This document shows positions 1 through 13,568 of a stretch of 13,568 nt of DNA, piece after piece. Every line of letters begins with the position of its first letter. The stretch's first letter is position 1. Below the pieces are notes generated by a model. That model made no database searches, was not told the DNA's origin, and was given only the letters and a program-made list of their open reading frames with translations. Made by a program: the position numbers and the translations under genes. The stretch is from a bacterium (GTDB taxonomy: Bacteria; UBA9089; CG2-30-40-21; SBAY01): positions 1 to 13,568 of the forward strand of contig JBFLYA010000103.1 in NCBI GenBank assembly GCA_040757115.1, in the 5' to 3' direction.

Positions 1-55
1 ATAAACTATAAACCATAAACTATAAACCATAAACTATAAACTATAAACTATAAAC
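1..55. repeat. Heptanucleotide array ATAAACY, 8 units
   Basis: Seven complete units and one 6-nt unit of ATAAACT or ATAAACC run from the first base. The period is exactly 7. The array is cut by the window edge, so a mirrored arm may lie upstream. No spacers separate the units, so it is not a CRISPR array. It matches in period, but not in word, the other heptad arrays between genes in this window. Confidence 0.9.
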
Positions 56-179
56 GAGTTTTGCATTTTGCTCTTTGGAGGAAATTGATAAAAATAGAGG
101 TTTTAAATACCCGCTTAAAAACTACAGTTTCCTGGTTTTGCAGAATCCTAAGTTACCAATTATAAGGAGGAAGTTAAAA

Positions 180-449
180 ATGCCAATTCATAAATCTGCT
201 CTTAAACGAGCAAGACAAAATGAAACAAGAAGACAACACAATGTTGCGGTTAAATCAACTCTAAAAACTTATACTAAAAAAGTAATTGAGGCAGTTGAGA
301 AAAAAGATGTCGAATCCGCAAAAAATGCCTTAAATACATCCATTAAAATGTTGGATAAGGCAGTGAGTAAAGGCATTATTCACAAAAATAATGCGGGCAG
401 ACGGAAATCAAAATTGACGATTAAAGTTAATAAGCTATCTTCTATGTAA
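180..449 (+). CDS. rpsT: 30S ribosomal protein S20
   Basis: S20 binds 16S rRNA early in assembly of the small subunit body. The 89-residue product has the usual length and the family pattern: a basic start MPIHKSALKRARQNETRR, a lysine-rich helix, and the motif KGIIHKNNAGRRKSKL near the C-terminus. I chose ATG 180 because AAGGAGG lies at 164-170 with a 9-nt spacer and the protein then begins exactly where S20 begins; the open frame extends upstream to a TTG at 75, but those residues do not resemble S20. The gene is followed 17 nt later by a small coiled-coil gene and then zapA, all on the plus strand and probably co-transcribed. I could not identify a convincing promoter between the heptad array and the gene. 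Confidence 0.97.
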   Translation: MPIHKSALKRARQNETRRQHNVAVKSTLKTYTKKVIEAVEKKDVESAKNALNTSIKMLDKAVSKGIIHKNNAGRRKSKLTIKVNKLSSM

Positions 450-466
450 GTGAGGAGGGTGTAAAA

Positions 467-694
467 ATGACGATAGATAATTTGACGCGATTAGAAGAAC
501 GGGTAAATAAACTATTGGATGAAATAGAACGCTTAACGAAAGAAAACCAACAACTCCAGGAACGAATAGCCGAGTTTCCTTATGGCGATCTTGAGGCACT
601 TAAATCCGAAAATCTATCATTGAAGGATGAACAAAAACAATTGAAGGAAAGAATAAATAATATACTTACTATGACCGAAAAGGTGTTAAGATAA
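467..694 (+). CDS. Small coiled-coil protein, ZapB-like
   Basis: This 75-residue protein is almost wholly a predicted coiled coil: heptads of Leu/Ile with Glu/Lys/Gln run from about residue 5 to 36 and again from 42 to 70, separated by a break around FPYGDL. Size, charge and position directly before zapA fit a ZapB-like cell-division factor, which in the known system bridges ZapA to the nucleoid at the division site. The sequence is low in complexity, so the family call rests mostly on context. GAGGAGGGTG at 452-461 is a good ribosome binding site ahead of ATG 467. The gap to rpsT is 17 nt and to zapA 30 nt, consistent with one transcript. Confidence 0.6.
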   Translation: MTIDNLTRLEERVNKLLDEIERLTKENQQLQERIAEFPYGDLEALKSENLSLKDEQKQLKERINNILTMTEKVLR

Positions 695-724
695 ATCCTT
701 CGATAGGGGGATATTTAAACTGCT

Positions 725-1003
725 ATGGAGCAAAATAAGATCGAGGTAGAAATCTTTGGCGCTAGTTATACCATTAAAAGTGATGAAAATCCTACATATA
801 CGGCAGAACTGGCTCAATTTGTCGATGAAAAAATGCGAAATATTACCCAAAAAACGGATACTGTCTCCACCGGCAAAATCGCAATATTAGCCGCTCTTCA
901 TATCGCTGATGAGCTATTTAAGATAAAAAAAACTATTGATTTTAAACTTGATAGATTAACGCGGAAAATAGATGCTAAATTAAAACAAATCCCAGAAAAA
1001 TAG
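725..1003 (+). CDS. zapA: Cell division protein ZapA
   Basis: ZapA binds FtsZ and promotes bundling of its protofilaments at mid-cell. The 92-residue product shows the family order: an N-terminal beta domain (KIEVEIFGASYTIKSDENPTY, residues 5-25), then the helix with FVDEKM (residues 32-37), then the ILAALHIADELFKIK segment and a C-terminal coiled coil. Length is typical. The purine-rich AGGGGG at 705-710 is 14 nt before ATG 725, a long spacer. It follows the ZapB-like gene in the same direction. Its stop is only 2 bp from the stop of the convergent DUF2723 gene, so no terminator fits between them. Confidence 0.9.
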   Translation: MEQNKIEVEIFGASYTIKSDENPTYTAELAQFVDEKMRNITQKTDTVSTGKIAILAALHIADELFKIKKTIDFKLDRLTRKIDAKLKQIPEK

Positions 1004-1005
1004 TC

Positions 1006-2391
1006 TCATCTCAGTTTCTTTATTTCCCTTTTACAAATTTTAAAAATAGCATTCCTTGGACTTGAAAAATATTCATATCGGGGATAAATAAGATAGATAG
1101 AAGAATAAGAAGGGTATTTTTTTATCATTATTTCTAAATTTCCCTTTTTCTTTTTGCAAGTAATAACCTTAATGTCTTTGCGGAGAAAAGAAACATTCTG
1201 GCAATACCAAAAACAAGTCGCATACCCCCAATTAGAGATGACTAAAGAATTATGGGGTAGCCAGCGTAATGCTTGAGAACAAAAGTCATAGGGGGAAAAA
1301 TACTTGCTCCGGTCAATTTTATATCCACCCAGCCAATATGGTAATTGAAAAGAAAAAAATAAACTAATAATTATAATGGCTTGTGTCCAGAGTTGTTTAT
1401 GCGGCGAAGTCCTTTTGATTAAAAACCAAATCCCCATGCCAATGAATAATGAAAAGAATAGATAAGTGGGAAGATATAAACTCCAAATATCACCAATGTC
1501 ATAATTTATACAAAAGATAACCAAAAATAACCACATTAAAGAGATAAGAAGTGTAAAATTTTTATTAAATGATTTAAGGAAACCTATAATTCCGAAACTA
1601 AAGGCAAAAGCAGGAAATTGGGTAATGAGTAAGAGAAAATAATGCCACAAATTTTTAGTGACCTCAAAAACTGGGCTACAAAAGAGTAATTTCTTAAAGT
1701 GGCTACCAGAGATATAGTTGAAAAAATCCTTGAAAGTAGTAACTTTACTCCAGTTGACTACGATAATATCATCAAATGACCGTATGGGAATGTAAAGATA
1801 GATACTCAAACCGAGGAAAAAAGGCAGGATGAATTTACCCAGCTGTCTAACTCGTTCTTTGATAATAAAATAGAAAAAAACAGGTAGAAAAAGGATAATT
1901 GTCAGATGATTCCCAAGGCTTAAACCATAGATAAAAAAGAAAAGGTAAAGCAAAAGTGTTTTTTTGCCTTGCCGCCAGATTAAAAAGATTACGATTAATA
2001 GACTTAGAAGGAAAATATTAAGTGTATAGACCTCAGCTTTGGTCGAAAGCGTCCAGCAGGTATAAGAAAACCCAAAACAAAAACTGGACATTAACCCTGA
2101 AAATCGAGACTGGGTAATGAAAAAGATAATGAGAAATATCAAACTACAACTAAGTGCAGAAAAGAGAGCGGACATTAAGTTTAATCTGAAGGCAATCTCG
2201 CCAAATGGAAGAAAGGTAAAGAGTTTACCTAGTAAAAGATAGAGGGGATAACCAGGGGCATGGGCAATGCTTAATAAATAGGCACAGGTAGCCAATTCAC
2301 CACTATCATCTAATCCAACTCCAGGAGTTAATGTTCGAAGATAAACACCAAAAGTAAAAAAGAAGATAAATAACGATAGCCATTTGTTCAT
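1006..2391 (-). CDS. DUF2723 multi-pass membrane protein (GT-C-like)
   Basis: The 461-residue product is a polytopic membrane protein. The diagnostic block lies in the first outer loop, residues 24-51: GVGLDDSGELATCAYLLSIA followed by HAPGYPLY. This is the hallmark of DUF2723 proteins (related to eukaryotic TMEM260), which resemble GT-C glycosyltransferases; acidic residues D28, D29 and E32 sit where the GT-C catalytic loop lies. About nine to ten hydrophobic helices follow, then a soluble tail of about 90 residues with several Cys and Lys. Substrate and donor are unknown. I chose ATG 2391 (MNKWLSLF) over the upstream TTG 2427 because that TTG is part of a sigma70 -35 box. There is no ribosome binding site before ATG 2391, as expected for a leaderless message. 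Confidence 0.85.
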   Translation of the reverse strand: MNKWLSLFIFFFTFGVYLRTLTPGVGLDDSGELATCAYLLSIAHAPGYPLYLLLGKLFTFLPFGEIAFRLNLMSALFSALSCSLIFLIIFFITQSRFSGLMSSFCFGFSYTCWTLSTKAEVYTLNIFLLSLLIVIFLIWRQGKKTLLLYLFFFIYGLSLGNHLTIILFLPVFFYFIIKERVRQLGKFILPFFLGLSIYLYIPIRSFDDIIVVNWSKVTTFKDFFNYISGSHFKKLLFCSPVFEVTKNLWHYFLLLITQFPAFAFSFGIIGFLKSFNKNFTLLISLMWLFLVIFCINYDIGDIWSLYLPTYLFFSLFIGMGIWFLIKRTSPHKQLWTQAIIIISLFFSFQLPYWLGGYKIDRSKYFSPYDFCSQALRWLPHNSLVISNWGYATCFWYCQNVSFLRKDIKVITCKKKKGNLEIMIKKYPSYSSIYLIYPRYEYFSSPRNAIFKICKREIKKLR

Positions 2392-2398
2392 CGGTAAT

Positions 2399-2427
2399 AT
2401 TATATATTTATTATTCCTTAAAGTCAA
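2399..2427 (-). promoter_or_regulatory. Sigma70-type promoter giving a leaderless mRNA
   Basis: Read on the minus strand, TTGACT (2427-2422) and a perfect TATAAT (2404-2399) are separated by 17 nt. The expected start point, 7 nt after the -10 box, is at about 2392, one base before the A of ATG 2391. This predicts a transcript that begins at the start codon. Confidence 0.75.
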
Positions 2428-2435
2428 CTTTTTTG

Positions 2436-2679
2436 GTAACCGTTCACCGCACAGACACAGAGACGCAGAGAAAAAATTAAAAACTATTTACCAGACGCAG
2501 GATTCCATCACGGATTTTCATCAGTGCAATCTTTTGAGGACCGACATCTCATGATTGATTAACAATTGGGTTTTGATGTCCTATGTATTCCAATGATTGC
2601 CTCAATAATCTTTTCTGTTATCTGATTTATTTCTCTGTTCCTCTGCGTCTCTGCGGTAAATTACCACCTGAACGCTTAC
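2436..2679. mobile_element. IS66-end-like mini-element with CAGAGA word arms
   Basis: This 244-bp gene-free stretch fills the space between the DUF2723 promoter and comF. It starts with GTAACCGTTCA (2436-2446) and ends with TGAACGCTTAC (2669-2679), an inverted pair matching the ends seen at 3501-3936 and 8965-9273. Just inside are two 26-nt arms made of 8-nt words such as CACAGAGA and CGCAGAGA: plus sense at 2446-2471, mirrored at 2632-2657. The centre has no open frame. No direct repeat flanks it (CTTTTTTG on the left, AAAGAATC on the right), so it is either old or assembled from two insertions. Confidence 0.6.
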
Positions 2680-2701
2680 AAAGAATCAGAATGGGACGAA
2701 A

Positions 2702-3430
2702 ATGCATCTTTTTGATGATTTAATAAATTTTATCTTTCCATCTAAATGTAGAACTTGTGGTAAATTGCTTCCAACTTTAGCAGAAAAATATATCTGTAAT
2801 GAATGTTTCTCAAAGATAAACAGGGTCAGTCCTCCTTATTGTGATAAGTGCGGAAAGATGTTAGTCGAGTCATTTAACGAGATTGAAAAACCCCTATGTG
2901 AAGAATGCCAGATTCACAAAAGACACTTTTTTAAAGCACGAATAATGGGTGTTTATGAAGGTATTTTACGAGAGAGTATTCATATATTTAAGTTTGAAAA
3001 GAAGATATGTATGCAAAAGCCACTAAGCGAATTACTGGTTAATTATCTTAAAGAACAACAAGGAGATTTAATTAGCCAGATTGACTTTATCATCCCGGTG
3101 CCATTACATCGAAAAAGATTTAGAGTGCGTGGGTTTAATCAGGCACAACTGTTAGCCTTTCATATTGGCAGGTATTTTAATCTACCATTAAATCTTGACC
3201 TGAAACGAATTAGATTTACCACGCCGCAGATGAATCTGGAAAGGGAACAGCGGATACAAAACATAAAAGGTGCATTTGCGGTAAAAAATCAGCATATAAT
3301 TACGGACAAACATCTATTATTAGTCGATGATATTTTCACCACCGGAGCAACTGTAAATGAATGCAGTAAAGTGCTTATGAAAGCAGGAGCAAAACAGGTC
3401 TTTGTCTTAACATTAGCCAGGGGAAGATAA
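2702..3430 (+). CDS. comF: ComF family phosphoribosyltransferase-like protein
   Basis: ComF proteins couple a zinc-binding N-terminus to a type I phosphoribosyltransferase-like domain; in naturally competent bacteria they are cytosolic and needed for DNA uptake, although many bacteria have them without known competence. Here four CxxC pairs (C16/C19, C32/C35, C47/C50, C66/C69) form the zinc region. The PRTase part includes PVPLHRKRFRVRGFNQAQLL and the PRPP-binding loop LLLVDDIFTTGAT with D209 and D210. The length of 242 residues is typical. ATG 2702 has only a weak GGGA upstream, but the start MHLFDDLINFIFPSKC is normal for the family. No other competence gene is visible in the window. Confidence 0.93.
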   Translation: MHLFDDLINFIFPSKCRTCGKLLPTLAEKYICNECFSKINRVSPPYCDKCGKMLVESFNEIEKPLCEECQIHKRHFFKARIMGVYEGILRESIHIFKFEKKICMQKPLSELLVNYLKEQQGDLISQIDFIIPVPLHRKRFRVRGFNQAQLLAFHIGRYFNLPLNLDLKRIRFTTPQMNLEREQRIQNIKGAFAVKNQHIITDKHLLLVDDIFTTGATVNECSKVLMKAGAKQVFVLTLARGR

Positions 3431-3461
3431 TCACTGGTGGTCCACTTTAGTTTGAAAAGGG

Positions 3462-3473
3462 GTAAGCATTCAG
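3462..3473 (+). repeat. Extra IS66-like end, GTAAGCATTCAG
   Basis: A second copy of the element end GTAAGCATTCAG lies 39 bp before the start of the 3501-3936 element in the same orientation. No partner end or direct repeat could be assigned. It lies between GTCCACT (3440-3446) and its complement AGTGGAC (3486-3492). It looks like the remnant of an earlier insertion. The rest of 3431-3500 has nothing recognisable. Confidence 0.5.
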
Positions 3474-3500
3474 ATAACAGAGAGCAGTGGACAGAAATTT

Positions 3501-3936
3501 GTAAGCATTCAGGTGGTGTAACAAAAGGAGATGTGGAGATTAAGGAGATAGGGAGATTTATTAGAAATTAGTAGAAACTAATAGAAATTTATGGAAATTT
3601 GGGTGGTGTCTGAAAATAACGCTAAGAGTGAAATCTATGCAGATTTGGTGTAAAAAAGGGGATAAGGAGATAAAAGGAGATATGGAGATTATTCATTGTA
3701 ATTTGCAAAATTTTAGAATGAATTTATCTCCTAATCTCCATAATCCCCATATCTCCTTTTCGGACACTATTTCAACCTTTATGCTAGATTGAGACACCAC
3801 CGAAATTTGTTGTTTTCCACAATCAATTTCTACCTATTTCTATAAATTTCAATCTATTTCTATTATCTTATCTCCATATCACCCTTATCTCCTTATCCCC
3901 TTTCTTACACTTTTGATATATAGCCTGAACGGTTAC
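3501..3936. mobile_element. Non-autonomous IS66-like element with 8-bp target duplication
   Basis: The ends are GTAAGCATTCAGG (3501) and CCTGAACGGTTAC (3924-3936), inverted copies of one another. Exact direct repeats AGAAATTT flank it at 3493-3500 and 3937-3944. IS66-family elements typically begin GTAA and make 8-bp duplications, so this is most likely a gene-less derivative. Each arm carries GGAGAT words of about 8 nt and TAGAAATTAG-type words of about 10 nt: plus sense at 3525-3600, reversed at 3810-3910. A second, 200-bp MITE is nested inside. It has no coding capacity. Confidence 0.75.
3602..3801 (+). mobile_element. 200-bp MITE, copy 1, nested
   Basis: The terminal inverted repeats are GGTGGTGTCT (3602-3611) and AGACACCACC (3792-3801). 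Exact 8-bp direct repeats GAAATTTG flank it at 3594-3601 and 3802-3809. The inside is a long imperfect hairpin built of GGAGATAA-like words around a short centre (TGCAAAATTTTAG). The same 200 bp occurs inverted at 10652-10851, with about eight mismatches by my count. There is no gene inside. The family is not assigned; 8-bp duplications occur in several IS families. Confidence 0.85.
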
Positions 3937-3942
3937 AGAAAT

Positions 3943-3971
3943 TTGACCTCTTCCCCTGTTAAGTTTTTAAT
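3943..3971 (+). promoter_or_regulatory. Candidate promoter for flgD
   Basis: TTGACC (3943-3948) and TTTAAT (3966-3971) are separated by 17 nt, each one mismatch from the sigma70 consensus. The first two bases of the -35 box belong to the right-hand target duplication of the inserted element. The start point would be near 3978, giving a leader of about 35 nt containing the strong ribosome binding site. No sigma28 or sigma54 signature was seen. Confidence 0.45.
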
Positions 3972-4012
3972 AATCTATGTCGATATTAATTAAAGGAGGT
4001 GAATAAAGAAAG

Positions 4013-4408
4013 ATGGCCGCAGTTACTCCTTTAGTAACTCAAGTTGATTTCCTAAAATTATTAGTTACTCAACTCGAATACCAAAATCCATTGGACCCAC
4101 TAGATAATGCAGAGTTCCTTGGTCAAATGGCAGAATTCTCTAATTTACAACAATTGATTAGTTTGAACGAAAATTTCAGTGAATTGACTACTAATTTCGC
4201 ATCCCTTAATAGTTCTATGCTAAAAACTCAAGCATTATCCCTCCTTAATACAGTAGTAAATTTTACAGACCCGGTAAACGGTGAGATTTTCACAGGCATG
4301 GTATATCAGGTAAAATTTATCGAGGGGATTCCGAAATTAACTGTTATTCACGACCAGGGAACATCCGAAATAGGACTTGATAATATCATTAGTGTTATGG
4401 TTCGGTAA
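4013..4408 (+). CDS. flgD: Flagellar hook capping protein FlgD, short form
   Basis: FlgD caps the growing flagellar hook and guides FlgE assembly outside the cell. The 131-residue product has the conserved N-terminus: DFLKLLVTQLEYQNPLDPLD (residues 12-31), then FLGQMAEFSNLQQL (residues 35-48). The C-terminus (VVNFTDPVNGEIFTGMVYQV, ending in LDNIISVMV) is a natural ending for short FlgD forms of about 130-150 residues, which lack the Ig-like part of enterobacterial FlgD. It therefore looks complete. AAGGAGGTGA (3993-4002) is a near-perfect ribosome binding site 10 nt before ATG 4013. A small unrecognised gene follows after 25 nt. flgE, fliK and other flagellar genes are absent. Confidence 0.93.
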   Translation: MAAVTPLVTQVDFLKLLVTQLEYQNPLDPLDNAEFLGQMAEFSNLQQLISLNENFSELTTNFASLNSSMLKTQALSLLNTVVNFTDPVNGEIFTGMVYQVKFIEGIPKLTVIHDQGTSEIGLDNIISVMVR

Positions 4409-4433
4409 AACTGATATTGAAAGGAAATAAAGA

Positions 4434-4757
4434 ATGGAACCATTAGACATAGAGGTTAATTTAGCTCAACAGGCAGAAGTAGGTAGAATGCAACAAGCCG
4501 GGATATACCAGATAAATGCCTGGCAAGAACAAATAGCAGGTAAACTGGAATTAGAGGCTGAAACTTCTCAAACATCAGTTCAAACCACTCAATTATCAGA
4601 AGAAGAACAAATTGAAAAAAGAAAAGGTGACCGTAACAAAAATCCATACTGGTGGAAAAAACAGTACCAGTATAAACAAATAAATAATATTCATCTTGAA
4701 GAGATACAACCAATTCCTCATCCAATCAAAGGTAGATTCATTGATGTCTTTAGATAA
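4434..4757 (+). CDS. Unrecognised small protein downstream of flgD
   Basis: I do not recognise a named family. The 107-residue product has a helical, glutamine-rich N-terminus (LAQQAEVGRMQQAGIYQ, residues 10-26), a Ser/Thr/Glu linker (residues 42-60), a basic aromatic patch with NPYWWKK and QYQYK, and a terminal motif IKGRFIDVFR. It has no signal peptide or membrane helix. Small proteins with a Gln-rich start and a terminal G-x-x-IDV motif occur in some flagellar operons; that link is from memory and weak. AAGGAAA (4421-4427) precedes ATG 4434 by 6 nt, and the gap to flgD is 25 nt, so the two are very likely co-transcribed. A secretion- or hook-related accessory role is only a guess from position. 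Confidence 0.7.
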   Translation: MEPLDIEVNLAQQAEVGRMQQAGIYQINAWQEQIAGKLELEAETSQTSVQTTQLSEEEQIEKRKGDRNKNPYWWKKQYQYKQINNIHLEEIQPIPHPIKGRFIDVFR

Positions 4758-4770
4758 AGGTAGCCCTTCA

Positions 4771-5186
4771 GATACGACGGCACAAGAAATGTGCGTATGT
4801 GTTTAGCGTGTTCTGAATGATGCTAATTTAAGGCGTAACTCTTTGGTAAATAATAAGATGCCGATGTAAAATATTCCACGAAGAGCTTAATGCAAATATC
4901 AAAATGTAAAAAGCAAAATGACAAAGCAAAATGCAAAAATACTTGTAAGGCAATAAAAAAAATCAAATATTAAAAATCAAAAATAAGAATAAAAGAATTC
5001 CTTAATTTTGATATTTGCTCTTTGATTTTTGATATGATATTTGATATGTCATTTTGCATTTTAATATTTAATTTTTGATTTTGTATTACACAACTTGTTG
5101 TGTTTGAAGTGGTTTCGCACTAAGTCAGTACCATTCATTTGTGCTCTCTGACCACGCTAAACAGGTACGAAATATGCCTCCGTATC
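4771..5186. mobile_element. 416-bp inverted-repeat element with heptad word arms
   Basis: This gene-free spacer runs from GATACG (4771-4776) to CGTATC (5181-5186). GTTTAGCGTG (4801-4810) is matched exactly in inverted orientation at 5153-5162, with partial similarity between the two ends around it. Inside, 4892-4939 is a run of 7-nt words (GCAAAAT, TCAAAAT, GTAAAAA) and 5001-5087 holds the reverse-complement type, so most of the element can fold on itself. ACACAACTTGTTGTGT (5088-5103) is a small separate hairpin. No clear direct repeat flanks the ends, so the mobile nature is inferred from the inverted ends only. Confidence 0.5.
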
Positions 5187-5217
5187 TTAGTGAGGCGAAT
5201 AGTTACGAAGGAGGAAG

Positions 5218-5658
5218 ATGTCAGGTATGAGTGATAATGAGAGTAAGAATTTTTGGCTTACAATTCCAGGTATTATCACTGGAATATCTGCTTTTGTCAC
5301 CGCAATAGGTGGACTTCTAATCGCACTTCATCAAACCGGACTGTTGGGACGACCAAATAACCCTTCGCAACAGATAGAGATTAAAAGAGACAAAGTCTAT
5401 GTTGTGGGTAATGTTCGTGATGAATCAGGTAATCCTTTGAGCGGGGCAACTATCATTGCTATTAATACAGATAATAAACAGGAAATTGGAAAAGAAACAG
5501 CAGATACGGATGGTTCTTTTGAGATGAAGCTGGAATTCGACCGAAACAAAGACCGCATTAAGTTAATAACCCAAAAAGATGGTTATGAAAAGTATACGAT
5601 AGTATTAGGAACTGAGCAGGTTTCGTATCCATCAATATTGCTCAAAAGTAAAAATTGA
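5218..5658 (+). CDS. Membrane-anchored carboxypeptidase-regulatory-like protein
   Basis: The 146-residue product has one N-terminal membrane helix (residues 11-42, FWLTIPGIITGISAFVTAIG onward), a short polar linker, and a beta-rich domain from about residue 58 to the end. That domain reads YVVGNVRDESGNPLSGATI and then ADTDGSFEM, the signature of the carboxypeptidase regulatory-like (CarboxypepD_reg) fold. In larger proteins this module is a structural or adhesive accessory at the cell surface. AAGGAGG (5208-5214) is only 3 nt before ATG 5218 and 12 nt before the in-frame ATG 5227, so the start may be the second Met. The FGE-like gene follows after 9 nt, so the two are presumably made together; function is unknown. 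Confidence 0.75.
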   Translation: MSGMSDNESKNFWLTIPGIITGISAFVTAIGGLLIALHQTGLLGRPNNPSQQIEIKRDKVYVVGNVRDESGNPLSGATIIAINTDNKQEIGKETADTDGSFEMKLEFDRNKDRIKLITQKDGYEKYTIVLGTEQVSYPSILLKSKN

Positions 5659-5667
5659 GAGGTAATT

Positions 5668-6552
5668 ATGACTTTGAAATTAAAAAGTATTATTTATGCA
5701 ATTAAGTCTATCGTTTTAACTCCGAAGTTTTTTCTTCTTATTTTAATATTCATCATTATTTCTAATGTCCAGGCTCAGCGCTTATTGCCTAAAAGCATAA
5801 TATCAATAAAAGATAAGGCTGAAATGGTGCTAATCCCTGAAGGTCCATTTATTTCGGGTATGAACCAGAATGACATTAGAAATCTTATAAGAGGACTTAG
5901 GACACCAATGATGGATATCTATAAATCTGAATTCCCAATGAAAAATAAAATTCTTGGGAATTATTACATAGACCGTTACGAAGTTACAAATGAACAATAT
6001 GAACGCTTTATGAAAGAAACAGGTCATCGAGCTCCGAAATATTGGGACTGGCCTCAATTCAACGGTAAGCGTCAACCGGTAGTCGGTGTAGGATGGGAAG
6101 ATGCGAAAGCCTACTGCGAATGGGCAGGGAAAAGGTTACCAACTGAGGATGAATGGGAAAAAGCGGCACGAGGGACCGAAGGATGGATATGGCCATGGGG
6201 AAATACGCCAGATGAAGGAAATTTTAACGGCAGGGAACAGGCAAACTATGGCCCTGTAAATGTAGGCTGTTTTCCATCAGGCAATAGTCCTTATGGAATC
6301 AGTGATATGGCGGGCAATGTCTGGGAGATGACTTCTGGTATTTGGTGGAAAGGTAAGGATAAAACAATGCACACAATGCGTGGAGGTTCTTTTCTTAATA
6401 TATCTCCAGATGTTCGAGTAACTATCCGTTGGGCCGCTAAGAATGAAAAAGAGGGCGCAGAGTGGCTTGGCTTTCGTTGTATAATGGATGTTAAAGATAT
6501 GGAAAGATTTTCTACTAAACCTATTTTGAAACCGGGACGCATTAAAAAATAA
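5668..6552 (+). CDS. Secreted FGE/SUMF1-fold protein without catalytic cysteines
   Basis: The 294-residue product starts with a basic stretch and a hydrophobic segment (residues 20-36, ending NVQA/Q) that reads as a Sec signal or anchor. The SUMF1 domain spans about residues 50-270: YIDRYEVTNEQYERFM, then GKRLPTEDEWEKAARG, WPWGN, GISDMAGNVWEM, MRGGSF and a final LGFRC. True formylglycine-generating enzymes have two Cys in a C-x(4)-C motif before the final GFRC; here the matching stretch reads VRVTIRWAAK, with Arg and Trp at those sites. It is therefore unlikely to make formylglycine; a binding or structural role is inferred. GAGAGG (5657-5662) gives a 5-nt spacer. The stop TAA abuts the next ATG. 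Confidence 0.88.
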   Translation: MTLKLKSIIYAIKSIVLTPKFFLLILIFIIISNVQAQRLLPKSIISIKDKAEMVLIPEGPFISGMNQNDIRNLIRGLRTPMMDIYKSEFPMKNKILGNYYIDRYEVTNEQYERFMKETGHRAPKYWDWPQFNGKRQPVVGVGWEDAKAYCEWAGKRLPTEDEWEKAARGTEGWIWPWGNTPDEGNFNGREQANYGPVNVGCFPSGNSPYGISDMAGNVWEMTSGIWWKGKDKTMHTMRGGSFLNISPDVRVTIRWAAKNEKEGAEWLGFRCIMDVKDMERFSTKPILKPGRIKK

Positions 6553-8580
6553 ATGAGTAATATTAAACGCTTGTCTATTCCTAATTCTATCCTTATACTA
6601 ACTCTTATTATCTGGTTTGGTTTGGTGGCAATAAATTACTATAAACATCACCCTTCGCTCTATCAGACACTTACGGGCTTAATTGAAATCTCGAGTGTCT
6701 TGTTCTTTCTTATCTTCATTTTACTTACTGCATTTCTTGGTGGGCATACTCTTTTCAATCTTTTTAAAATCGAGATTAAAGGATTAGAAAAATTCCTGTT
6801 TTCTATGGGGCTTGGGTTTGGGGTATTAATGTATTTAACCTTTTTTTTAGCCACGGCTGGGTTATTATATACTCAAGCGGTCTGTGGGGTAATGATAGCC
6901 ATTATCTTTTTGAGTATTAAAGATTTAAAAAAACTCATCCCTCAGAAACAGAAAAAGAAACCTAATCTTTCCCAAAAGACAAAAAATTATTCTTTACTTG
7001 ATTTAAGTTTAGCCGTTATTTTGTGTCTTACTATTCTTGGGGTTTTAATTAGCACATTGACACCTCATATCTCCTGGGATTGTGCGGTTTATCATTTGAA
7101 TGTTCCAAAATTCTATCTAAAAGAACATAGATTTATCCCAATTCTTCATATTGTTGCCTCTAATATGCCTTTCAATATCGAGATGCTTTATACCATAGCC
7201 CTTTCTTTGAAAAATCCTGTTGTGGCTAAACTCATCCATTTCTCATTCGGGATTTTAACCCTGTTATGTATCTATTCTTTTTGTAAAAGATACTTCAATC
7301 AACAGATAGGTCTATGGTCAATGGTAATTTTTTATCTAAATCCTGTGACACTTTTTGTGGCTAACATTTCCTATATAGATTTAGCGGTAACTTATTATTT
7401 TCTCCTGGCCTGCTATGATTTTTTTCTATGGTCAGACCCGATGAATCAGGATGCGAAAAAGGGACGATGGTTAATTTTAATGGCGATATTTTGTGGAATT
7501 ATGATGGGCGCAAAATATACCGCCGTCTTTGGTACATTTATTCTTGGTGCTGGGATTTTTATAAAACTCTTTTTTTCAGAGCAGGTTAATTTTTTTAAAA
7601 TATCAAAGCAAACCTTACTTTTTGCTTTTATCTCCTCTCTCTTTGTTATCCCCTGGCTTATCAAGAGTTATCTATTTACTGGCAATCCTGTTTATCCAGC
7701 GGCTTATAATCTATTTGGCGGAATTAACTGGGATAAGGAACTTGCTGACCAATTTGCAAAGTGGCAGTTTGGTAAAATGGGTAAAAAAGAGATATTATCA
7801 TATCTCCTACTTCCCTGGCAAATGACTATTCATGGAAATTATGGACAGATATTTGATGGTATTTTGAGTCCACTCTATTTAATTTTTATCCCTTTTCTTA
7901 TCTTCCTTAAGGAAAGAAATAAGGTCATAATCTATTTATTATGTTATTCTATGTCCTTTTTTATATTATGGAGTCTTTCTATTCAAATTTTGAGGTATCT
8001 GTTGCCTATTGTGCCGCTGTGGAGCATTATTGTAAGTTATGTGATAGATGCCGTTTCACACAAAGGCAAAATTCATAAGATAGCTATCTGGACGCCGACA
8101 TTGATTATCCTCCTTTCCATTCAACTTCCTCATCTTTTTCAGTATTCGACTGATGTTTTGGCCGCGGTCGGGTTAGAAAGTAAAGATGCTTACATCAGCC
8201 GAACATTTCCTCCATATAAGGTATTTAAGTATATAAATGAGAAACTAAGTGACCGTGCAAAAATCCTTTGTTTATGGGAAAATCGTGGGTTTTATTGTGA
8301 GCGGGAATACTTAGCGGATAGTTTCTTCGAGGCATCTCATATGTTAAAAATGATTCGAAAATGTGGGAGTGCACCACAACTATTAGAAGAGTTAAGAAAA
8401 CAAGGAATTACACATATCCTTATAAATAAACAATTAGCCGCAATCTTTTATGACAAAAAAGGTGTAGAAATAAAGATAATTGAGGAATTTCTCGGTAGAT
8501 ATTGTCATCTTCTCTATTCGGAAAATGATGTGGATTTGTATGAGATAACTGTTCAGCCACTAATTAGCACGGATAAATAA
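6553..8580 (+). CDS. GT39/PMT-like multi-pass membrane glycosyltransferase
   Basis: The 675-residue product has about 12-13 hydrophobic helices. The region around residues 170-190 (TPHISWDCAVYHLNVPKFYL) matches the first large outer loop of GT-C enzymes of the dolichyl/undecaprenyl-phosphate-mannose type (PMT_2); D176 is the likely catalytic Asp. The segment NMPFNIEMLYTIA follows. The last 120 residues form a soluble domain with RTFPPYKVFKYINEKL and THILINKQL. The enzyme would use a polyprenyl-phosphate sugar on the outer face of the membrane; the acceptor is unknown. The FGE-like stop and this ATG touch (TAAATG) and the start has no strong ribosome binding site, suggesting translational coupling. 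It ends a three-gene operon. Confidence 0.85.
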   Translation: MSNIKRLSIPNSILILTLIIWFGLVAINYYKHHPSLYQTLTGLIEISSVLFFLIFILLTAFLGGHTLFNLFKIEIKGLEKFLFSMGLGFGVLMYLTFFLATAGLLYTQAVCGVMIAIIFLSIKDLKKLIPQKQKKKPNLSQKTKNYSLLDLSLAVILCLTILGVLISTLTPHISWDCAVYHLNVPKFYLKEHRFIPILHIVASNMPFNIEMLYTIALSLKNPVVAKLIHFSFGILTLLCIYSFCKRYFNQQIGLWSMVIFYLNPVTLFVANISYIDLAVTYYFLLACYDFFLWSDPMNQDAKKGRWLILMAIFCGIMMGAKYTAVFGTFILGAGIFIKLFFSEQVNFFKISKQTLLFAFISSLFVIPWLIKSYLFTGNPVYPAAYNLFGGINWDKELADQFAKWQFGKMGKKEILSYLLLPWQMTIHGNYGQIFDGILSPLYLIFIPFLIFLKERNKVIIYLLCYSMSFFILWSLSIQILRYLLPIVPLWSIIVSYVIDAVSHKGKIHKIAIWTPTLIILLSIQLPHLFQYSTDVLAAVGLESKDAYISRTFPPYKVFKYINEKLSDRAKILCLWENRGFYCEREYLADSFFEASHMLKMIRKCGSAPQLLEELRKQGITHILINKQLAAIFYDKKGVEIKIIEEFLGRYCHLLYSENDVDLYEITVQPLISTDK

Positions 8581-8605
8581 TAGAGGAGAGACGGCACGGT
8601 GCTAG

Positions 8606-8794
8606 GGTCGTGTTGAGTAAGTTTTGCACGGGGTATCATCAGATTTCATAACCTGCAAACGGATAATTAGTAACTGGTAACTGGTAATTGGTTAAATAGT
8701 TTCGTCCTGAGCTCAGCCGAACGGTATTTAATTACCAGTTACCAATCACCAGTTACCAGAATCAAATTCCGTGCGTTATTTGTTCAACATGACA
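8606..8794. mobile_element. 189-bp element between CTAG repeats with GGTAACT hairpin
   Basis: CTAG lies directly on both sides (8602-8605 and 8795-8798). The left end GGGTCGTGTTGA is mirrored by TCAACATGACA at the right end, and a GCACGG block lies further in at both ends. Inside, arms of 7-nt words (GGTAACT, GGTAATT) at 8665-8698 pair with reversed words at 8725-8759 around a central palindrome CTGAGCTCAG (8707-8716). A CTAG-type 4-bp duplication and ends of this kind suggest an IS5-like mini-element, but that is tentative. No coding sequence is present. Confidence 0.55.
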
Positions 8795-8802
8795 CTAGAA
8801 AC

Positions 8803-8844
8803 TTCATCATTCTACATTCAGTATTCTACATTCGATATTCAATA
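8803..8844. repeat. Heptanucleotide array TTCNNNA, 6 units
   Basis: Six consecutive 7-nt units start with TTC and end with A: TTCATCA, TTCTACA, then TTCAGTA and variants. No mirrored arm is visible nearby. The array lies between the CTAG-flanked element and a candidate promoter. Confidence 0.75.
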
Positions 8845-8899
8845 TTATTCCTGTTACCTAAACGATTACGATATTTTTAAAAAATTCTCGGTCAGCCTC

Positions 8900-8929
8900 T
8901 TGACAAAATGGAAAGAATTGTTTTATACT
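8900..8929 (+). promoter_or_regulatory. Candidate sigma70 promoter for the histidine kinase
   Basis: A perfect TTGACA (8900-8905) and TATACT (8924-8929, one mismatch) are separated by 18 nt. The start point would be near 8936. The only plus-strand gene downstream is the kinase at 9324, with an inserted IS66-like element between. It could also drive a small RNA, but no terminator was seen to support that. Confidence 0.55.
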
Positions 8930-8964
8930 TAAATTGAACATTGGAATTGATAATGACTATATTT

Positions 8965-9273
8965 GTAAGCGTTCAGGTGTAAGTAGCACAAGTAATTATT
9001 TTTTATTCACTGCAATTCAGACACTGGACATCAGACACAAGACTATAGACTCTATTTATGCAGGGAATTAGGTAAACGTTCAGCTACTTAAAAAAATAAC
9101 TGTAAAATGTAAAATGAGCAATTAAAAATTTAAAAGTCAATTCTGTGTTCTGGCAGTAAGAATTGATTTCCCAATCATCTTGCATTTCATCTATCCTCTC
9201 ATTTTACATTTTTCATTTTACATTGCCCATTTTACATTATTATTAGATATTTTGTAATGACCTGAACGCTTAC
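8965..9273. mobile_element. 309-bp IS66-like mini-element with 8-bp target duplication
   Basis: The ends are GTAAGCGTTCAGG (8965) and CCTGAACGCTTAC (9261-9273), perfect inverted copies. The flanks are exact direct repeats CTATATTT (8957-8964 and 9274-9281). Ends and duplication length fit IS66-family derivatives. A third, internal end GTAAACGTTCAG (9072-9083) hints at a nested or older copy. It contains heptad runs: CAGACAC and TGGACAT types at 9018-9052, TGTAAAA at 9101-9114, and mirrored CATTTTA words at 9200-9241. There is no open frame of note. Confidence 0.8.
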
Positions 9274-9323
9274 CTATATTTGAAACCAATTATTGATAAC
9301 CGATTACCGACAACTAATAAAAG

Positions 9324-10622
9324 ATGGAATGTATAAAAATGCAAGTAAAAAAAGACAATACTAATCAAATAATTACAAGTCTGAGACTTCAGATAATTAT
9401 AGGAATAATAAATGCTATTTTTATAAATATAGCCATTAATCTCCTCATGCCGAAGGTTTGGCCCAATTTTCCTGTGGTAGAAGTTTGCATTTTAGTTGGG
9501 CTTTTACCTATTCTTGCTTTAATAGACTTAGCCCTTTTTGTCAAATTCAAACAACTTATCCTCAATCTGCTATGGATTTTGGTCATCGATGGCATTATCC
9601 TCACTACAATCCTCTATTTAATTGGTGAGATGAGATATTTATTTGTCTTCATCTATCTTATGCCCATTATGATGAGTGCCCCTATCTTTCCGCTAAGGCG
9701 TCTTATCATCCTCCCAATCGTTTATTCTCTCTTCTTTACCACCATGGTCTTTTTAGAGTATCTGGGAATGATTCAGATTATCGATACGCCTCATCTTGAG
9801 ATTACCATCTTCTATATTTTGCTGGTCTCAACCGTAACCATAATCCTTATTCATGCCATAACGATAATTATAGGAAGAACTATGGATAAAATAAATGAAA
9901 GGGATTGGCAGTTAAGATTGACCTATAAGGAACTGCAGGATTCACAGGATAAACTTGTTAAGGTAGAGAAACTTGCAGCGGTTTCTCAGATTGCCGCTGA
10001 GGCCGCTCATGAGGTAAAAAATCCATTACAGGTCATAAAATCAGGATTATACTATCTGAAAATAACTCACAAAGAGGATATTGATGCCCAGCAGACTATC
10101 CAGCAGATGGATAGTGCCGTAGGAAGGGCAACCGGGTTTATCAATGACCTGCTGAATTTCTCAAAGCCACTTGAGTTGAAAACGACTAAGTGCCAGGTGA
10201 ATAAATTAATCAAGGAGGCAATAAAGGAACTCCCTGAAGAACTTCTTTCTAATATCGATGTAACGCAAAACTTAGCCAGTGACCTGCCGGAGATTAATGT
10301 GGATTCTGACCGCATTCGTCAGGTGCTGGTTAATCTGGTGAAGAATGCGGCTGAGGCGATGGGAGGAGTTAAGAGTAAAAAGTTAAAAGTAAAAAGTGAA
10401 AGAGGGGGAGATTTTATCAAGATAGGCATCTCGGATACGGGCAAAGGCATAACCACAGAGGATATAAGCAAGATATTCGAGCCATTTTATACCACCAGAG
10501 GCAAAGGAATAGGTCTGGGGCTGGCTATCTGCCAGCGATTAATTGAGGCACACCAGGGCAGGATAGAGGTAGACAGTGAAGTTGGAAAGGGAACAACATT
10601 TGTGGTATTCCTGCCAATTTAG
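9324..10622 (+). CDS. Membrane sensor histidine kinase, orphan
   Basis: The 432-residue product has five to six N-terminal membrane helices (about residues 20-190), a short coiled linker, and a full kinase core. The H-box AAHEVKNPLQVIKSGL carries the phosphorylated H229; the N-box is VLVNLVKNAAEAM, the G1 box ISDTGKGI, the F-box IFEPFYTTRGKGIG and the G2 box LGLAI. The membrane part has no known sensor domain, so the signal is unknown. No response regulator is near, so its partner is elsewhere. ATG 9324 has no ribosome binding site; ATG 9339 is an alternative start. A heptad DNA repeat (10374-10401) is read in frame as a Lys/Ser-rich insert between the N and G1 boxes. Confidence 0.93.
   Translation: MECIKMQVKKDNTNQIITSLRLQIIIGIINAIFINIAINLLMPKVWPNFPVVEVCILVGLLPILALIDLALFVKFKQLILNLLWILVIDGIILTTILYLIGEMRYLFVFIYLMPIMMSAPIFPLRRLIILPIVYSLFFTTMVFLEYLGMIQIIDTPHLEITIFYILLVSTVTIILIHAITIIIGRTMDKINERDWQLRLTYKELQDSQDKLVKVEKLAAVSQIAAEAAHEVKNPLQVIKSGLYYLKITHKEDIDAQQTIQQMDSAVGRATGFINDLLNFSKPLELKTTKCQVNKLIKEAIKELPEELLSNIDVTQNLASDLPEINVDSDRIRQVLVNLVKNAAEAMGGVKSKKLKVKSERGGDFIKIGISDTGKGITTEDISKIFEPFYTTRGKGIGLGLAICQRLIEAHQGRIEVDSEVGKGTTFVVFLPI
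10374..10401 (+). repeat. In-frame heptad array AGTNAAA inside the kinase gene
   Basis: Four exact 7-nt units (AGTAAAA, AGTTAAA, AGTAAAA, AGTGAAA) are translated as part of VKSKKLKVKSERGG, between the N-box and the G1 box. That position is a surface loop in most kinases and is usually short. The period and style match the intergenic arrays. Confidence 0.8.
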
Positions 10623-10633
10623 AGAAATGAAGC

Positions 10634-10867
10634 CTCTCGGATAAAAAATTCGGTGGTGTCTTAATCTAGCATAAAGGTTGAAATAGTGTCCGAAAAGGAG
10701 ATATGGGGATTATGGAGATAAGGAGATAAATTCATTCTAAAATTTTGCAAATTACAATGAATAATCTCCATATCTCCCTTTATCTCCTTATCCTCTTTTG
10801 GACACCAAATCTGCATAGATTTCACTATTAGCGTTATTTTCAGACACCACCCAAATTTATCTGAGAG
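10634..10867. terminator. Hairpin after the kinase gene, split by the MITE
   Basis: CTCTCGGATAAA (10634-10645) and TTTATCTGAGAG (10856-10867) can pair over 12 bp with one G-U. They start 11 nt after the kinase stop. The 200-bp MITE lies exactly between them. Without it they would make a compact stem with an A/T loop, probably a terminator. It lacks a clear T-run, so the terminator role is uncertain. Confidence 0.45.
10652..10851 (-). mobile_element. 200-bp MITE, copy 2, inverted
   Basis: This is the reverse complement of 3602-3801, exactly 200 bp, with about eight substitutions and no gaps by eye. The terminal repeats GGTGGTGTCT and AGACACCACC are intact. The flanks (AAAAATTC and CAAATTTA) are AT-rich but not a clean duplication. 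The internal GTGTCC stem pairs better here than in copy 1. Confidence 0.88.
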
Positions 10868-10904
10868 CGTTCTAAAAAATAAAGGGGGTTTTGAATCTTT
10901 TACT

Positions 10905-11885
10905 ATGTATTTCCCGCAATATCGGCCAAGAAGATTAAGACAGAATGAAAATTTCAGAAGACTGATTTGTGAAACAACATTATCTGTTGATGACCTGATT
11001 ATGCCTTATTTTGTTGTTCATGGAAAAGGAATAAGACAGGAAATTCCATCAATGCCAGGTAACTTTCATCTCTCGGTAGATGAATTGCTCAAAGAAGTAG
11101 AACAAATCGTTAGTTTAAATATCCCGGCTATTCTATTATTTGGCTTACCGGCAAGAAAAGATGAATTTGGTTCAGAGGCTTATTCAGAAAGTGGAATTAT
11201 TCAGCAGGCGGTCAGGGTTATCAAAGAGAAGGTAAAGGAGATACTTATTATCACCGATGTCTGTCTCTGTGAATATACCTCATCCGGGCATTGCGGGATG
11301 GTAAAAGGTGGGAAGATTCTCAATGACCCAACTTTAGACCTTTTAGCTAAAATTTCATTATCACATGTCAAGGCAGGTGCAGATATGGTTGCTCCTTCAG
11401 ATATGATGGATGGTCGAGTTGGGGCTATCCGCAAGGCGTTAGATGAAAATGGCTACACAGATGTCCCGATTATGTCTTATGCGGTGAAATATGCCTCTTC
11501 TTTTTATGCCCCATTTCGTGAAGCCGCTCAATCTACACCTGAATTTGGCGATAGGAAATCATATCAAATGAATATTGCTAATGTCAATGAGGCACTAAGA
11601 GAAGCAAGATTGGATATAGAGGAAGGAGCAGATATAATTATGGTCAAACCTGCCTTATCTTACCTTGATGTCATCTATCGTGTCAAGTCCAAATTCCATT
11701 ATCCAGTCGCCGCTTACAATGTGAGTGGCGAATTTGCAATGATTAAATCCGCCGCAGATAAAGGATTGATTGATGAAAAAAAGGTTGTGTTAGAGGTATT
11801 AACCTCAATCAAACGCGCCGGGGCAGATATGATATTGACTTATTTTGCTAAGGATGTTGCAAAATGGATAACGGATGGGAAGTAA
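10905..11885 (+). CDS. hemB: Porphobilinogen synthase (5-aminolevulinate dehydratase)
   Basis: HemB condenses two 5-aminolevulinate molecules to porphobilinogen in the cytosol, the second step from ALA toward heme and other tetrapyrroles. The 326-residue product has the full family pattern. The zinc cluster [14 protein letters not shown] carries C120, C122 and C130, so it is the Zn-dependent type. The two Schiff-base lysines are K195 ([14 protein letters not shown]) and K248 ([11 protein letters not shown]). The start [12 protein letters not shown] is usual for the family. GGGGG at 10884-10888 is about 16 nt from ATG 10905, a long spacer, but no other in-frame start is visible. Its 3' end overlaps pgeF by 22 nt. 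No other heme gene lies in the window. Confidence 0.97.
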
Positions 11886-12574
11886 GAAAGATTGGTCCTC
11901 TAAATTATCTGGTTATGCCTGCTTTTGAATCCGTCCTGCAGGGCGTAACAACTAAAGAGATAGGAGAATTTAACTCGGATAACCCTGAAAAAATAAAAAC
12001 CAGACTAAACGAGCTTTTTGGGATTAATCAAATAGCCTGGACAACACAACTTCACGGTGATGAAATTTATGTCATTGGGGAAAATAATTTTAATCAATTT
12101 GGAACCCAAGAGGCAGATGGTTTAATTACCAATATCCCGGGAATTTGCCTGACGATTAGAATTGCAGATTGCCTGCCAATATTTATTTTAGATAAAAAAA
12201 ATAAGGCGATTGGTTTAGTCCATGCAGGCTGGCGAGGAACGGTGAAATGTATTGTTCAAAAGGCAATACTTAAAATGATAACGCTTTATGGCTCTTCGCC
12301 AGAAGATTTCATAGTTGGATTTGGCCCTTCAATTGGTGTCTGCTGTTATAAAGTCGGGAATGATGTGACGGAATTAATCAAGGATAAAGATTTAGTCAAG
12401 GATGGCTATTTAAACCTGCAAAAGGCAAATAAAAAACAATTGCTTGAACTGGGTATTAATAATATTATTCTCAACCAATATTGCACTTATGATGAGCGTG
12501 ATTTATTCTTTTCTCATCGAAGAGGGGATAAGGGGAGGATGATAGCGTTTTTGCAGATGGGAGTGATGGAGTGA
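11864..12574 (+). CDS. pgeF: Multi-copper/PgeF (YfiH) family purine nucleoside phosphorylase
   Basis: PgeF/YfiH proteins (laccase-domain fold) are zinc enzymes with purine nucleoside phosphorylase or deaminase activity; in E. coli the protein also affects peptidoglycan precursor editing. The 236-residue product shows the metal ligands and family motifs: QLHGDEIY, then [28 protein letters not shown], and [19 protein letters not shown] 11864 has AAGGA at 11850-11854 (9-nt spacer), inside hemB, and the genes overlap by 22 nt, suggesting coupling. The usual family end is near GRMIAFL; the last five residues (QMGVM) plus E and the stop are read from a word repeat that is mirrored after the next spacer. 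Confidence 0.92.
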
Positions 12575-12958
12575 AGGCGCCAAAAAGGGATATAGCCACA
12601 GAGTCACAGAGAACACAGAGGGAATATAGCAGTTATTAGTCAAAATTTTACTCAGAGTGGATAAGGGAAAAATCCCAAATCCCAAGCACCAAATTCCACA
12701 TACCAAAAAGCGAATTAGAGATTAGTGAATTAGAGATTAGATTTTACTAATTCGCTAATTCGCTTAATTCACTAATTCACTAAATGGAATTTGGAATTTG
12801 TGATTTGGAATTTCATAGCTATATCTATGTCAAATTTCGATTAATAAGTGCTATAATTCGTGTCCATTTGTGGCTAATTTCTCTAATTCTCTGTGAACTC
12901 TGTGCCTCTGTGGCTGAATGGTTACCCAAAATCACTATTCCACTACTCCATCATTCCC
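12557..12958. repeat. Layered word-repeat hairpin between pgeF and mgtC
   Basis: The spacer is a nest of inverted word repeats. From outside in: GGGAGTGATGGAGT (12560-12573, in pgeF) against a near-mirror at 12942-12955; CACAGAG words (12595-12623) against 12881-12914; AAATCCC heptads (12670-12697) against GGAATTT heptads (12786-12813); and GAATTAG or AGATTAG words (12712-12740) against CTAATTCG words (12747-12779). GGCTGAATGGTTAC (12912-12925) is a reversed IS66-like end without a left partner. It has no gene; short open frames there are translated repeats. Confidence 0.75.
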
Positions 12959-12979
12959 GGACTGAATGGAGGTAAAATA

Positions 12980-13447
12980 ATGGATTTTCGAGATATCATT
13001 TTACGGCTTTTATTAACCGTGGTTATGGGCGGGATTATTGGAGCAGAGCGGCAGATTCACCGCAAATCTGCCGGAATGAGAACACATATCCTCGTATGTC
13101 TGGGTTCGACATTAATGATGCTTATTTCCTTATTTATTTATGATACCTTCAAAGATGAAGTAAATGTTGACCCTGGTAGAATTGTTGGGCATGTCATCAG
13201 TGGCATTGGATTTTTAGGTGCTGGCACGATTATCGTTACTGGAGGTTCTATTCGAGGATTAACTACGGCGGCAACACTCTGGGTCACCGCCGCGGTAGGA
13301 TTAGCGGTTGGCTGTGGATTCTACTTAGCCGCAGGTATAACAACACTTATCATTCTCCTTGCCCTGATATGTTTAGAACCATTTGAAGAAAAATTCCTAT
13401 CAAAAGATAGAAAAGAGAAAATGGACAGCAATTCTCATTCTCTATAG
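12980..13447 (+). CDS. mgtC: MgtC/SapB family membrane protein, short form
   Basis: The 155-residue product has four to five membrane helices and the family motifs: GGIIGAERQIHRKSAGMRTH (residues 14-33), LVCLGSTLMML, then GHVISGIGFLGAGTI and RGLTTAATLWVTAAVGLAVG. MgtC in pathogens supports growth at low magnesium and modulates membrane ATP synthase; the role of short environmental members is uncertain. It lacks the C-terminal ACT-like domain of Salmonella MgtC. GGAGGT (12968-12973) with a 6-nt spacer fixes the start at ATG 12980; the open frame extends upstream into repeat sequence. It is preceded by the layered hairpin, with no visible promoter, and no magnesium-transporter gene is adjacent. 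Confidence 0.9.
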   Translation: MDFRDIILRLLLTVVMGGIIGAERQIHRKSAGMRTHILVCLGSTLMMLISLFIYDTFKDEVNVDPGRIVGHVISGIGFLGAGTIIVTGGSIRGLTTAATLWVTAAVGLAVGCGFYLAAGITTLIILLALICLEPFEEKFLSKDRKEKMDSNSHSL

Positions 13448-13568
13448 TTTCGTGATTTTTAGAAGATTGAAATCCCCTGAAAACACAAGGAAGAGGAATT
13501 ATTGCAAAGTTATGGCTAAACCATGAGTTGCAAAAAATAGTGAGTGAATTACAAAATTCCAAATCACA
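13448..13568. other. Gene-free tail with start of a heptad array
   Basis: No gene is visible. The last 15 bases (13554-13568) read AAATTCC then AAATCAC, the exact inverse of the words at 12800-12813, so another word array probably begins here and is cut by the window edge. Confidence 0.5.

Follow-up and report, generated by a model that had tools for sequence, protein, structure and literature searches.

Why should a single bacterial genome carry dozens of different short words, all repeated at the same step of seven nucleotides (nt), and how have these words come to lie at so many loci? The question is raised by contig JBFLYA010000103.1 (13,568 nt) of assembly GCA_040757115.1, from a bacterium of the UBA9089 lineage. 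In the present study, this whole contig (C103), hereafter the window, was analysed within its 4.32 Mb genome, which is AT-rich and split into 462 contigs, and was compared with a sister species (G001), whose locus L184 is collinear with the window. A preliminary description, made from the letters of the window alone, had reported word-repeat hairpins with a common period of 7 or 8 nt and a different word at each locus, and had considered slippage, or reverse transcription from a small template, as their source. Herein, we propose a two-layer account, to which we assign a probability of about 0.78, in which the words would be dispersed by miniature inverted-repeat transposable elements (MITEs) and the heptad arrays would grow by slippage.

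A step of seven nucleotides

Eight arrays with self-identity at lag 7 were detected in the window (1-61, 4957-4989, 5006-5088, 8662-8697, 8730-8760, 9196-9231, 10363-10405 and 12784-12814), whereas 100 runs of a dinucleotide Markov model averaged 0.03 arrays and never exceeded 1, and the window held no arrays at lags 5, 6, 9 or 11. Tandem Repeats Finder concurred with the lag-7 arrays and added 4889-4939 and 8808-8846. The 7-nt step described earlier is therefore upheld for these arrays; the CAGACAC stretch at 9018-9052 is degenerate and was reported by neither detector, and the CACAGAG and GGAGAT arrays, said to step by 8, have irregular steps of 8-10 nt. Genome-wide array counts were made on 1.69 of the 4.32 Mb, mostly the longer contigs, with a strong array defined as a match of at least 86% over 21 nt. 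Strong arrays numbered 158 at lag 7, 97 at lag 14, 63 at lag 21 and 11 at lag 8, and each of the remaining lags from 4 to 13 gave 0-4 (2 each at lags 6 and 9), with none at lags 5, 11 and 13; the Markov control gave 0. The autocorrelation excess that had been anticipated at lags 7 and 8 is thus present, at lag 7 and far smaller at lag 8. Intergenic DNA (188 kb) held 74 lag-7 arrays versus 2 in shuffles.

The signal extends beyond this genome. Lag-7 density in the sister species is 50 per Mb. In other phyla, 1.29 Mb of sequence from 80 hemB neighbourhoods yielded 5 lag-7 arrays, each in a different group, together with 3 at lag 12 and 0-1 at other lags. Taken together, the window, genome and other-phyla counts indicate that the lag-7 excess is real, specific to seven and, at a low level, not limited to this lineage. 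A preference for seven is known in bacteria and lacks an explanation, and the host lineage displays it with unusual richness. In G008 (L236-L238), which belongs to a less closely related family of this phylum, 7 lag-7 and 5 lag-9 arrays were observed in 60 kb.

About 70 different degenerate words were distinguished in the genome, among which GC-rich words such as AGCCCCG and ACTCGGG are common. Exact (GGTAAYT)3 matches numbered 121 in the host genome and 622 in the sister species, and this word also occurred in 5 genomes of other phyla among approximately 270 searched. Point mutation was considered as a source of the words: the 70 words are joined by 107.5 one-step links versus 68.5 ± 10 at random, a figure inflated by arrays holding two word variants.

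Mobile elements that carry the words

Most of the arrays sit within dispersed elements, for the most part MITEs. Pile-ups of similar sequences around 245 arrays resolved these into roughly twelve families, in each of which a characteristic word recurs from copy to copy. The words are therefore family-specific and do not differ from locus to locus as first described, and copying, previously dismissed as an explanation, accounts for their dispersal through these families. Family F1 has inverted ends of the insertion sequence IS66 type (GTAACCGTTCAG), beginning with GTAA. The end motif CTGAACGNTTAC has 1015 matches genome-wide versus 50 for the reversed control, and 33 convergent end pairs were found in the first sample. 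Exact 8-bp target duplications flank 53 of 171 F1 pairs versus 0.4 expected after shuffling, with 4 duplications of 7 bp and none of 9 bp. In the sister species F1 ends are nearly as frequent; several further genomes of the phylum show a smaller but distinct excess, and beyond the phylum most counts lie close to the control. At L051, an IS66 transposase gene (PF03050, E 1.9e-39) interrupted by two in-frame stops lies between matching F1 ends. A perfect F1-type end (GTAAGCGTTCAGG) also occurs within the reading frame of this transposase (L051:1273). The IS66-family element ISDge4, of the ISBst12 group, is reported to have the end GTAACTGCTCAGCA, an 8-bp direct repeat and a single transposase open reading frame (PMC12898284), all points of likeness to F1. 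Unlike the F1 MITEs, ISDge4 is autonomous, and the description of it in that source mentions no word arrays.

The ends of family F3 (TAGTGTCGTGTTGA), which start with TA, flank a 1.2-kb element (C265:861-2074) with an IS630-type DDE_3/HTH transposase (DDE_3 E 3.2e-20). On sequence grounds, the ends held in common with transposase-bearing elements identify F1 as an IS66-family (ISBst12-like) MITE and F3 as an IS630-family MITE. Family F2 is likely an IS1-like MITE, given that its ends (GGTGGTGTCT; 145 sites versus 4 in the control) enclose an IS1-like gene and are bordered by the duplication CAATATTT, although the match of this gene to PF03400 (E 5.2e-4) is below the curated cut-off. F4 ends occur 59 times versus 2, and for F4 and F6 dispersal as MITEs by end-recognising transposases may be supposed.

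Several observations concern the relation of words to elements. Words are missing from the transposase-bearing relatives examined (the IS66, IS630 and IS1-like copies), and F1 elements alike in their ends hold many different interiors; the words are thus best regarded as cargo. As to whether heptads might be seeded from the F1 end, lag-7 identity just inside F1 ends was not raised over all end clusters, many of which are single-copy and probably chance matches. The elements also nest, with F2 in F1 (3602-3801), F6 in F1 (12625-12856) and F1 in F4 (L246). In the first layer of the proposed mechanism, short non-autonomous elements, mainly MITEs, would be mobilised by transposases whose recognition is confined to the element ends, and because elements nest and the interiors of subfamilies differ, neighbouring loci would show different words. 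The tandem units of family F5 (L046:5664-6025, L195:1420-1878 and L154:7172-7634) share a conserved frame (CTCCTGAAAATA ... TATTTTCATCC) and contain a slot in which different word hairpins lie, and these differ between the two species.

Insertion is directly visible in the comparison with the sister species. The F1 MITE with GGAGAT words at 3501-3936 is bounded in the window by the 8-bp target duplication AGAAATTT (3493-3500 and 3937-3944) and is absent from the collinear sister locus, which has the clean empty site GGACAGAAATTTGACC; read from sequence, this element is an insertion that postdates the split from the sister. The F4 element at 4795-5168 is likewise missing there, with an empty site. 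The element at 12586-12926 occupies the same site in both species, and the site at 2436-2679 is occupied in both with a different interior.

Growth, loss and pairing of the arrays

Array length changes in whole units. When copies whose flanks are conserved were compared, indels within the arrays measured 7 nt in 191 cases, 14 nt in 65, 21 nt in 26 and 28 nt in 6, while lengths of 6 nt and 8 nt accounted for 27 and 16 cases. Each of the four 7-nt indels that separate the sister genomes corresponds to a single array unit. Gain and loss at the species level is also evident in the leader of rpsT, where about eight AGTTACC/AATTACC units are found in the sister species versus about two in the window (AGTTACCAATTA, 150-166, + strand, by the Shine-Dalgarno site). 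The left arms of F3 carry 1-4 heptads, and the right arms mostly retain four. The similarity of adjacent units slightly exceeds that of permuted units (0.877 versus 0.861, p=0.007). The unit steps, the independence of the arms and the likeness of neighbours fit slippage with local duplication, the guess made in the preliminary description and favoured also by the 7-specific lag spectrum, and they argue against units being copied independently from an RNA template and against arm-to-arm copying. The candidate that the two arms of a hairpin are copied in a coordinated way was not supported, as the F3 arm lengths change independently.

In the second layer of the mechanism, an existing 7-nt array would gain or lose whole heptads by slipped-strand replication and be locally homogenised, with the two arms of a hairpin changing independently. 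Pairing would persist because both arms hold one word family, with no need for either arm to serve as a template for its partner. Replication slippage would be the enzymatic step, and the preference for 7 nt might be imposed by the polymerase.

A complementary arm within 400 nt was found for 88 of 245 arrays versus 10 of 245 in the control; none was found within this distance for the AGAGGGC (0/15), AAGTGGG and AGCCCCG arrays. In the window, hairpin folding is supported for 8660-8765 (z -4.9), 9098-9241 (z -2.6) and 12668-12816 (z -6.4), and is not supported for 1-60, 8803-8846, 9010-9060 and 10360-10405. The earlier statement that most arrays have a reverse-complement arm thus holds for three window hairpins and fails for four window regions and for the genome as a whole.

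A dispersed leader element

A minority of arrays lie directly before genes. Family F7 is a conserved 100-nt element consisting of AATAGGGCTTCACGAAATTA, a heptad hairpin and then TTACCAAA, with the unit TTACCAA/TTACCAG (TTACCAR; TAACTGG on the other strand). In 18 of 24 F7 copies, a Shine-Dalgarno site follows at about +4 nt and a start codon at +17-21 nt, compared with 2.9% of random positions. Examples are L184:6498-6590, L198:9486-9612 and L166:5128-5254, and the genes downstream of these and 21 further copies differ. A 69-nt F7 insert lies 3' of rpsT in the sister species and is missing from the window. Arrays of AAAGTAG and ACTCGGG (family F5, with the end TATTTTCAGGAG) often adjoin a Shine-Dalgarno site and start codon as well. 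In a survey of 353 arrays, 41 abut such a site versus 2.8% of random intergenic segments; the share is 14 of 26 for AATTACC and 10 of 29 for AAAGTAG, and most families (AAACTAT, AAAAATT and others) were never found in leaders. Unit number in leader arrays varies freely. The F7 and F5 leader arrays probably affect translation, and the lineage points to a dispersed leader element before ribosome-binding sites.

Relation to known repeats

The over-representation of heptanucleotide long simple sequence repeats in prokaryotes, and a 7-nt polymerase footprint as its proposed source, are attributed to Mrazek (2007) in PMC4679880 and PMC4692102. As summarised there, those repeats resemble the present arrays in that 7 nt dominates among units of 5-11 nt and the repeats are mostly intergenic, vary among close relatives and include inverted pairs; the present case differs in having about 70 degenerate words in one genome, nested and within MITEs of several transposase families. 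The parallel drawn earlier with the heptanucleotide or short tandemly repeated repetitive sequences of cyanobacteria is supported by the gain and loss of 7-nt units, the 7-specific lag spectrum and the literature on heptamer excess. Those sequences are also tandem 7-nt units between genes, a likeness of layout, whereas here many words, hairpin arms and insertion-sequence-type ends are observed. In Beggiatoaceae, TAACTGA direct repeats are described just upstream of start codons (PMC4679880), a position shared by F7 and the rpsT leader of the sister species; going by that description, F7 differs in its unit, its conserved 100-nt element with an own 5' motif and its place beside a normal Shine-Dalgarno site. 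In Geobacter metallireducens, tandem words of 7-8 nt, paired on opposite strands and present in dozens of copies, were read as regulator-binding sites (PMC2700814). These are similar as paired tandem hepta- and octanucleotides, and the account of them in that source reports no transposon ends. The BrickBuilt MITE of Porphyromonas gingivalis also carries a tandem repeat inside a MITE, but with a 23-nt unit in one family of 19 copies (PMC4596501).

Thus, the heptad excess in bacteria, the proposed slippage footprint and the occurrence of tandem repeats in a MITE were already known. New here are the density, the number of words, the fact that MITEs belonging to several transposase families carry them, the F7 leader family, and the measured unit steps and arm independence. 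The dominance of 7 nt was noted in 2007, and no explanation was found in the literature. This lineage offers almost 100 strong heptad arrays per Mb, dozens of words, two species with gain and loss of units and several independent transposon families, so that effects of sequence and position can be separated from the 7-nt step. It also shows MITE interiors diversifying at fixed ends.

Weighing the explanations

Several points weigh against the two-layer account. Generic slippage should also yield arrays of 5, 6, 8 and 9 nt, which are nearly absent, and a polymerase footprint merely describes the 7-nt specificity without explaining it. The birth of the first word of each family was not seen, as the transposase-bearing copies examined do not contain words. 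The placement of gaps by the aligner favours unit multiples where array lengths differ, the effect of neighbour similarity is small, and for 81 of 245 arrays the sample contains at most three similar copies. Moreover, the placement of some arrays in leaders requires selection or a target preference. A related reading, which we consider possible though improbable, is that a copying activity in a 7-nt register, for example a polymerase slipping by exactly seven, makes arrays de novo at many unrelated sites in different bacterial phyla, and that in this lineage they were spread by MITEs, with some recruited as mobile translation leaders (F7 and F5) positioned precisely before Shine-Dalgarno sites. 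Selection of the arrays as regulatory leaders or RNA hairpins controlling translation, with the remainder as derived copies, would agree with the enrichment of F7 and some other arrays directly before Shine-Dalgarno sites and with the position of the Beggiatoaceae heptads; however, the majority of families are never leader-located, many arrays sit in inserted MITEs missing from the sister, and leader unit number is unconstrained, so that this explanation is doubtful.

The remaining explanations are much less likely. In F1, F3 and F4 the words do lie in inverted arms near the ends, as would be expected of subterminal transposase-binding sites, one word per transposase family, but equal F1 ends enclose many interiors, the IS66, IS630 and IS1-like parents are without words and the AGAGGGC arrays are one-armed; this reading was rejected and is very unlikely. 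Equally slight is the chance that a reverse transcriptase or telomerase-like enzyme writes the heptads from a short RNA template. A unit fixed at 7 nt while the words are many, and two RVT_1 loci in the genome, would suit such an enzyme; the local duplication pattern, in which neighbouring units are alike, and the independent change of the arms do not, and about 70 words confront these two loci; the locus that was examined encodes a reverse transcriptase-primase-polymerase fusion of the type associated with clustered regularly interspaced short palindromic repeats (CRISPR). Finally, an AT-rich genome in 462 contigs might be suspected of ordinary low complexity or assembly artefacts. This alternative, of which the preliminary description had named AT-rich low complexity as refuting its view, deserves almost no credence and was itself refuted by the Markov and dinucleotide shuffles, which yield almost no arrays; GC-rich words are common, and the same families occur in the independent sister assembly.

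The reverse transcriptase fusion (L173:67-3523, contig C42 of the host genome G000) has 954 aa and joins a CRISPR-type reverse transcriptase, TPR and a TOTE-type primase-polymerase; it adjoins a protein weakly matching Csx1/CARF-HEPN models.

Arrangement of the window

The window contains rpsT, zapA, flgD, an FGE-sulfatase gene, a PMT-like gene, a histidine kinase gene, hemB, a laccase-like gene and mgtC. At its left edge, the contig end truncates the ATAAACY array (1-60, + strand), an arm of family F9 that has the F9 flank next to it and no hairpin of its own. The F1 (IS66-type) MITE at 2436-2679 holds 8-nt words (CGCAGAGA) in inverted arms. Inside the F1 MITE at 3501-3936, the nested F2 MITE (3602-3801) has GAAATTTG at both flanks, and a second F2 MITE with GGAGAT arms lies in inverse orientation at 10652-10851 (- strand). 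The F4 MITE (4795-5168; ends GTAYSTGTTTAGCGTG) carries GCAAAAT and TTTTGAT heptads and the duplication GAAATRTGC. The GGTAACT heptad hairpin belongs to an F3 MITE with IS630-type ends (8603-8797; arms 8662-8697 and 8730-8760), whose insertion severed an F1 MITE; the right part of the latter (8800-8869, - strand) bears ATTCTAC/ATTCAAT heptads, and full copies are present at L034 and L042. An F1 composite at 8967-9273, multicopy in the sister species, combines the degenerate CAGACAC stretch with TGTAAAA/CATTTTA heptad arms (9101-9121 and 9196-9241). The F1-type element at 12586-12926 has 9-nt CACAGAG arms (12594-12620 and 12889-12915), and the F6 element nested in it (12625-12856; TATAGCACTTATTAATCGAAAT-type ends) has AAATCCC/GGAATTT heptad arms. 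The AGTNAAA array (10363-10405, + strand), first described at 10374-10401 as one of the spacer repeats, is a heptad array but not in a spacer and not an element: it lies in frame in the histidine kinase gene (9324-10622) and is kept in relatives.

An Rfam search of the window gave no match. The PMT-like gene appears to take its final codons and stop (ITVQPLISTDK) from a degenerate F1 end at 8547-8580. Relative to window positions 12101-12110, the laccase-like gene of the sister species (L184:13226-13298) is longer by about 60 nt, apparently in frame. At 13448-13538, a sequence of about 90 nt was observed that is repeated many times in genomes G002 and G003 at 75-84% identity.

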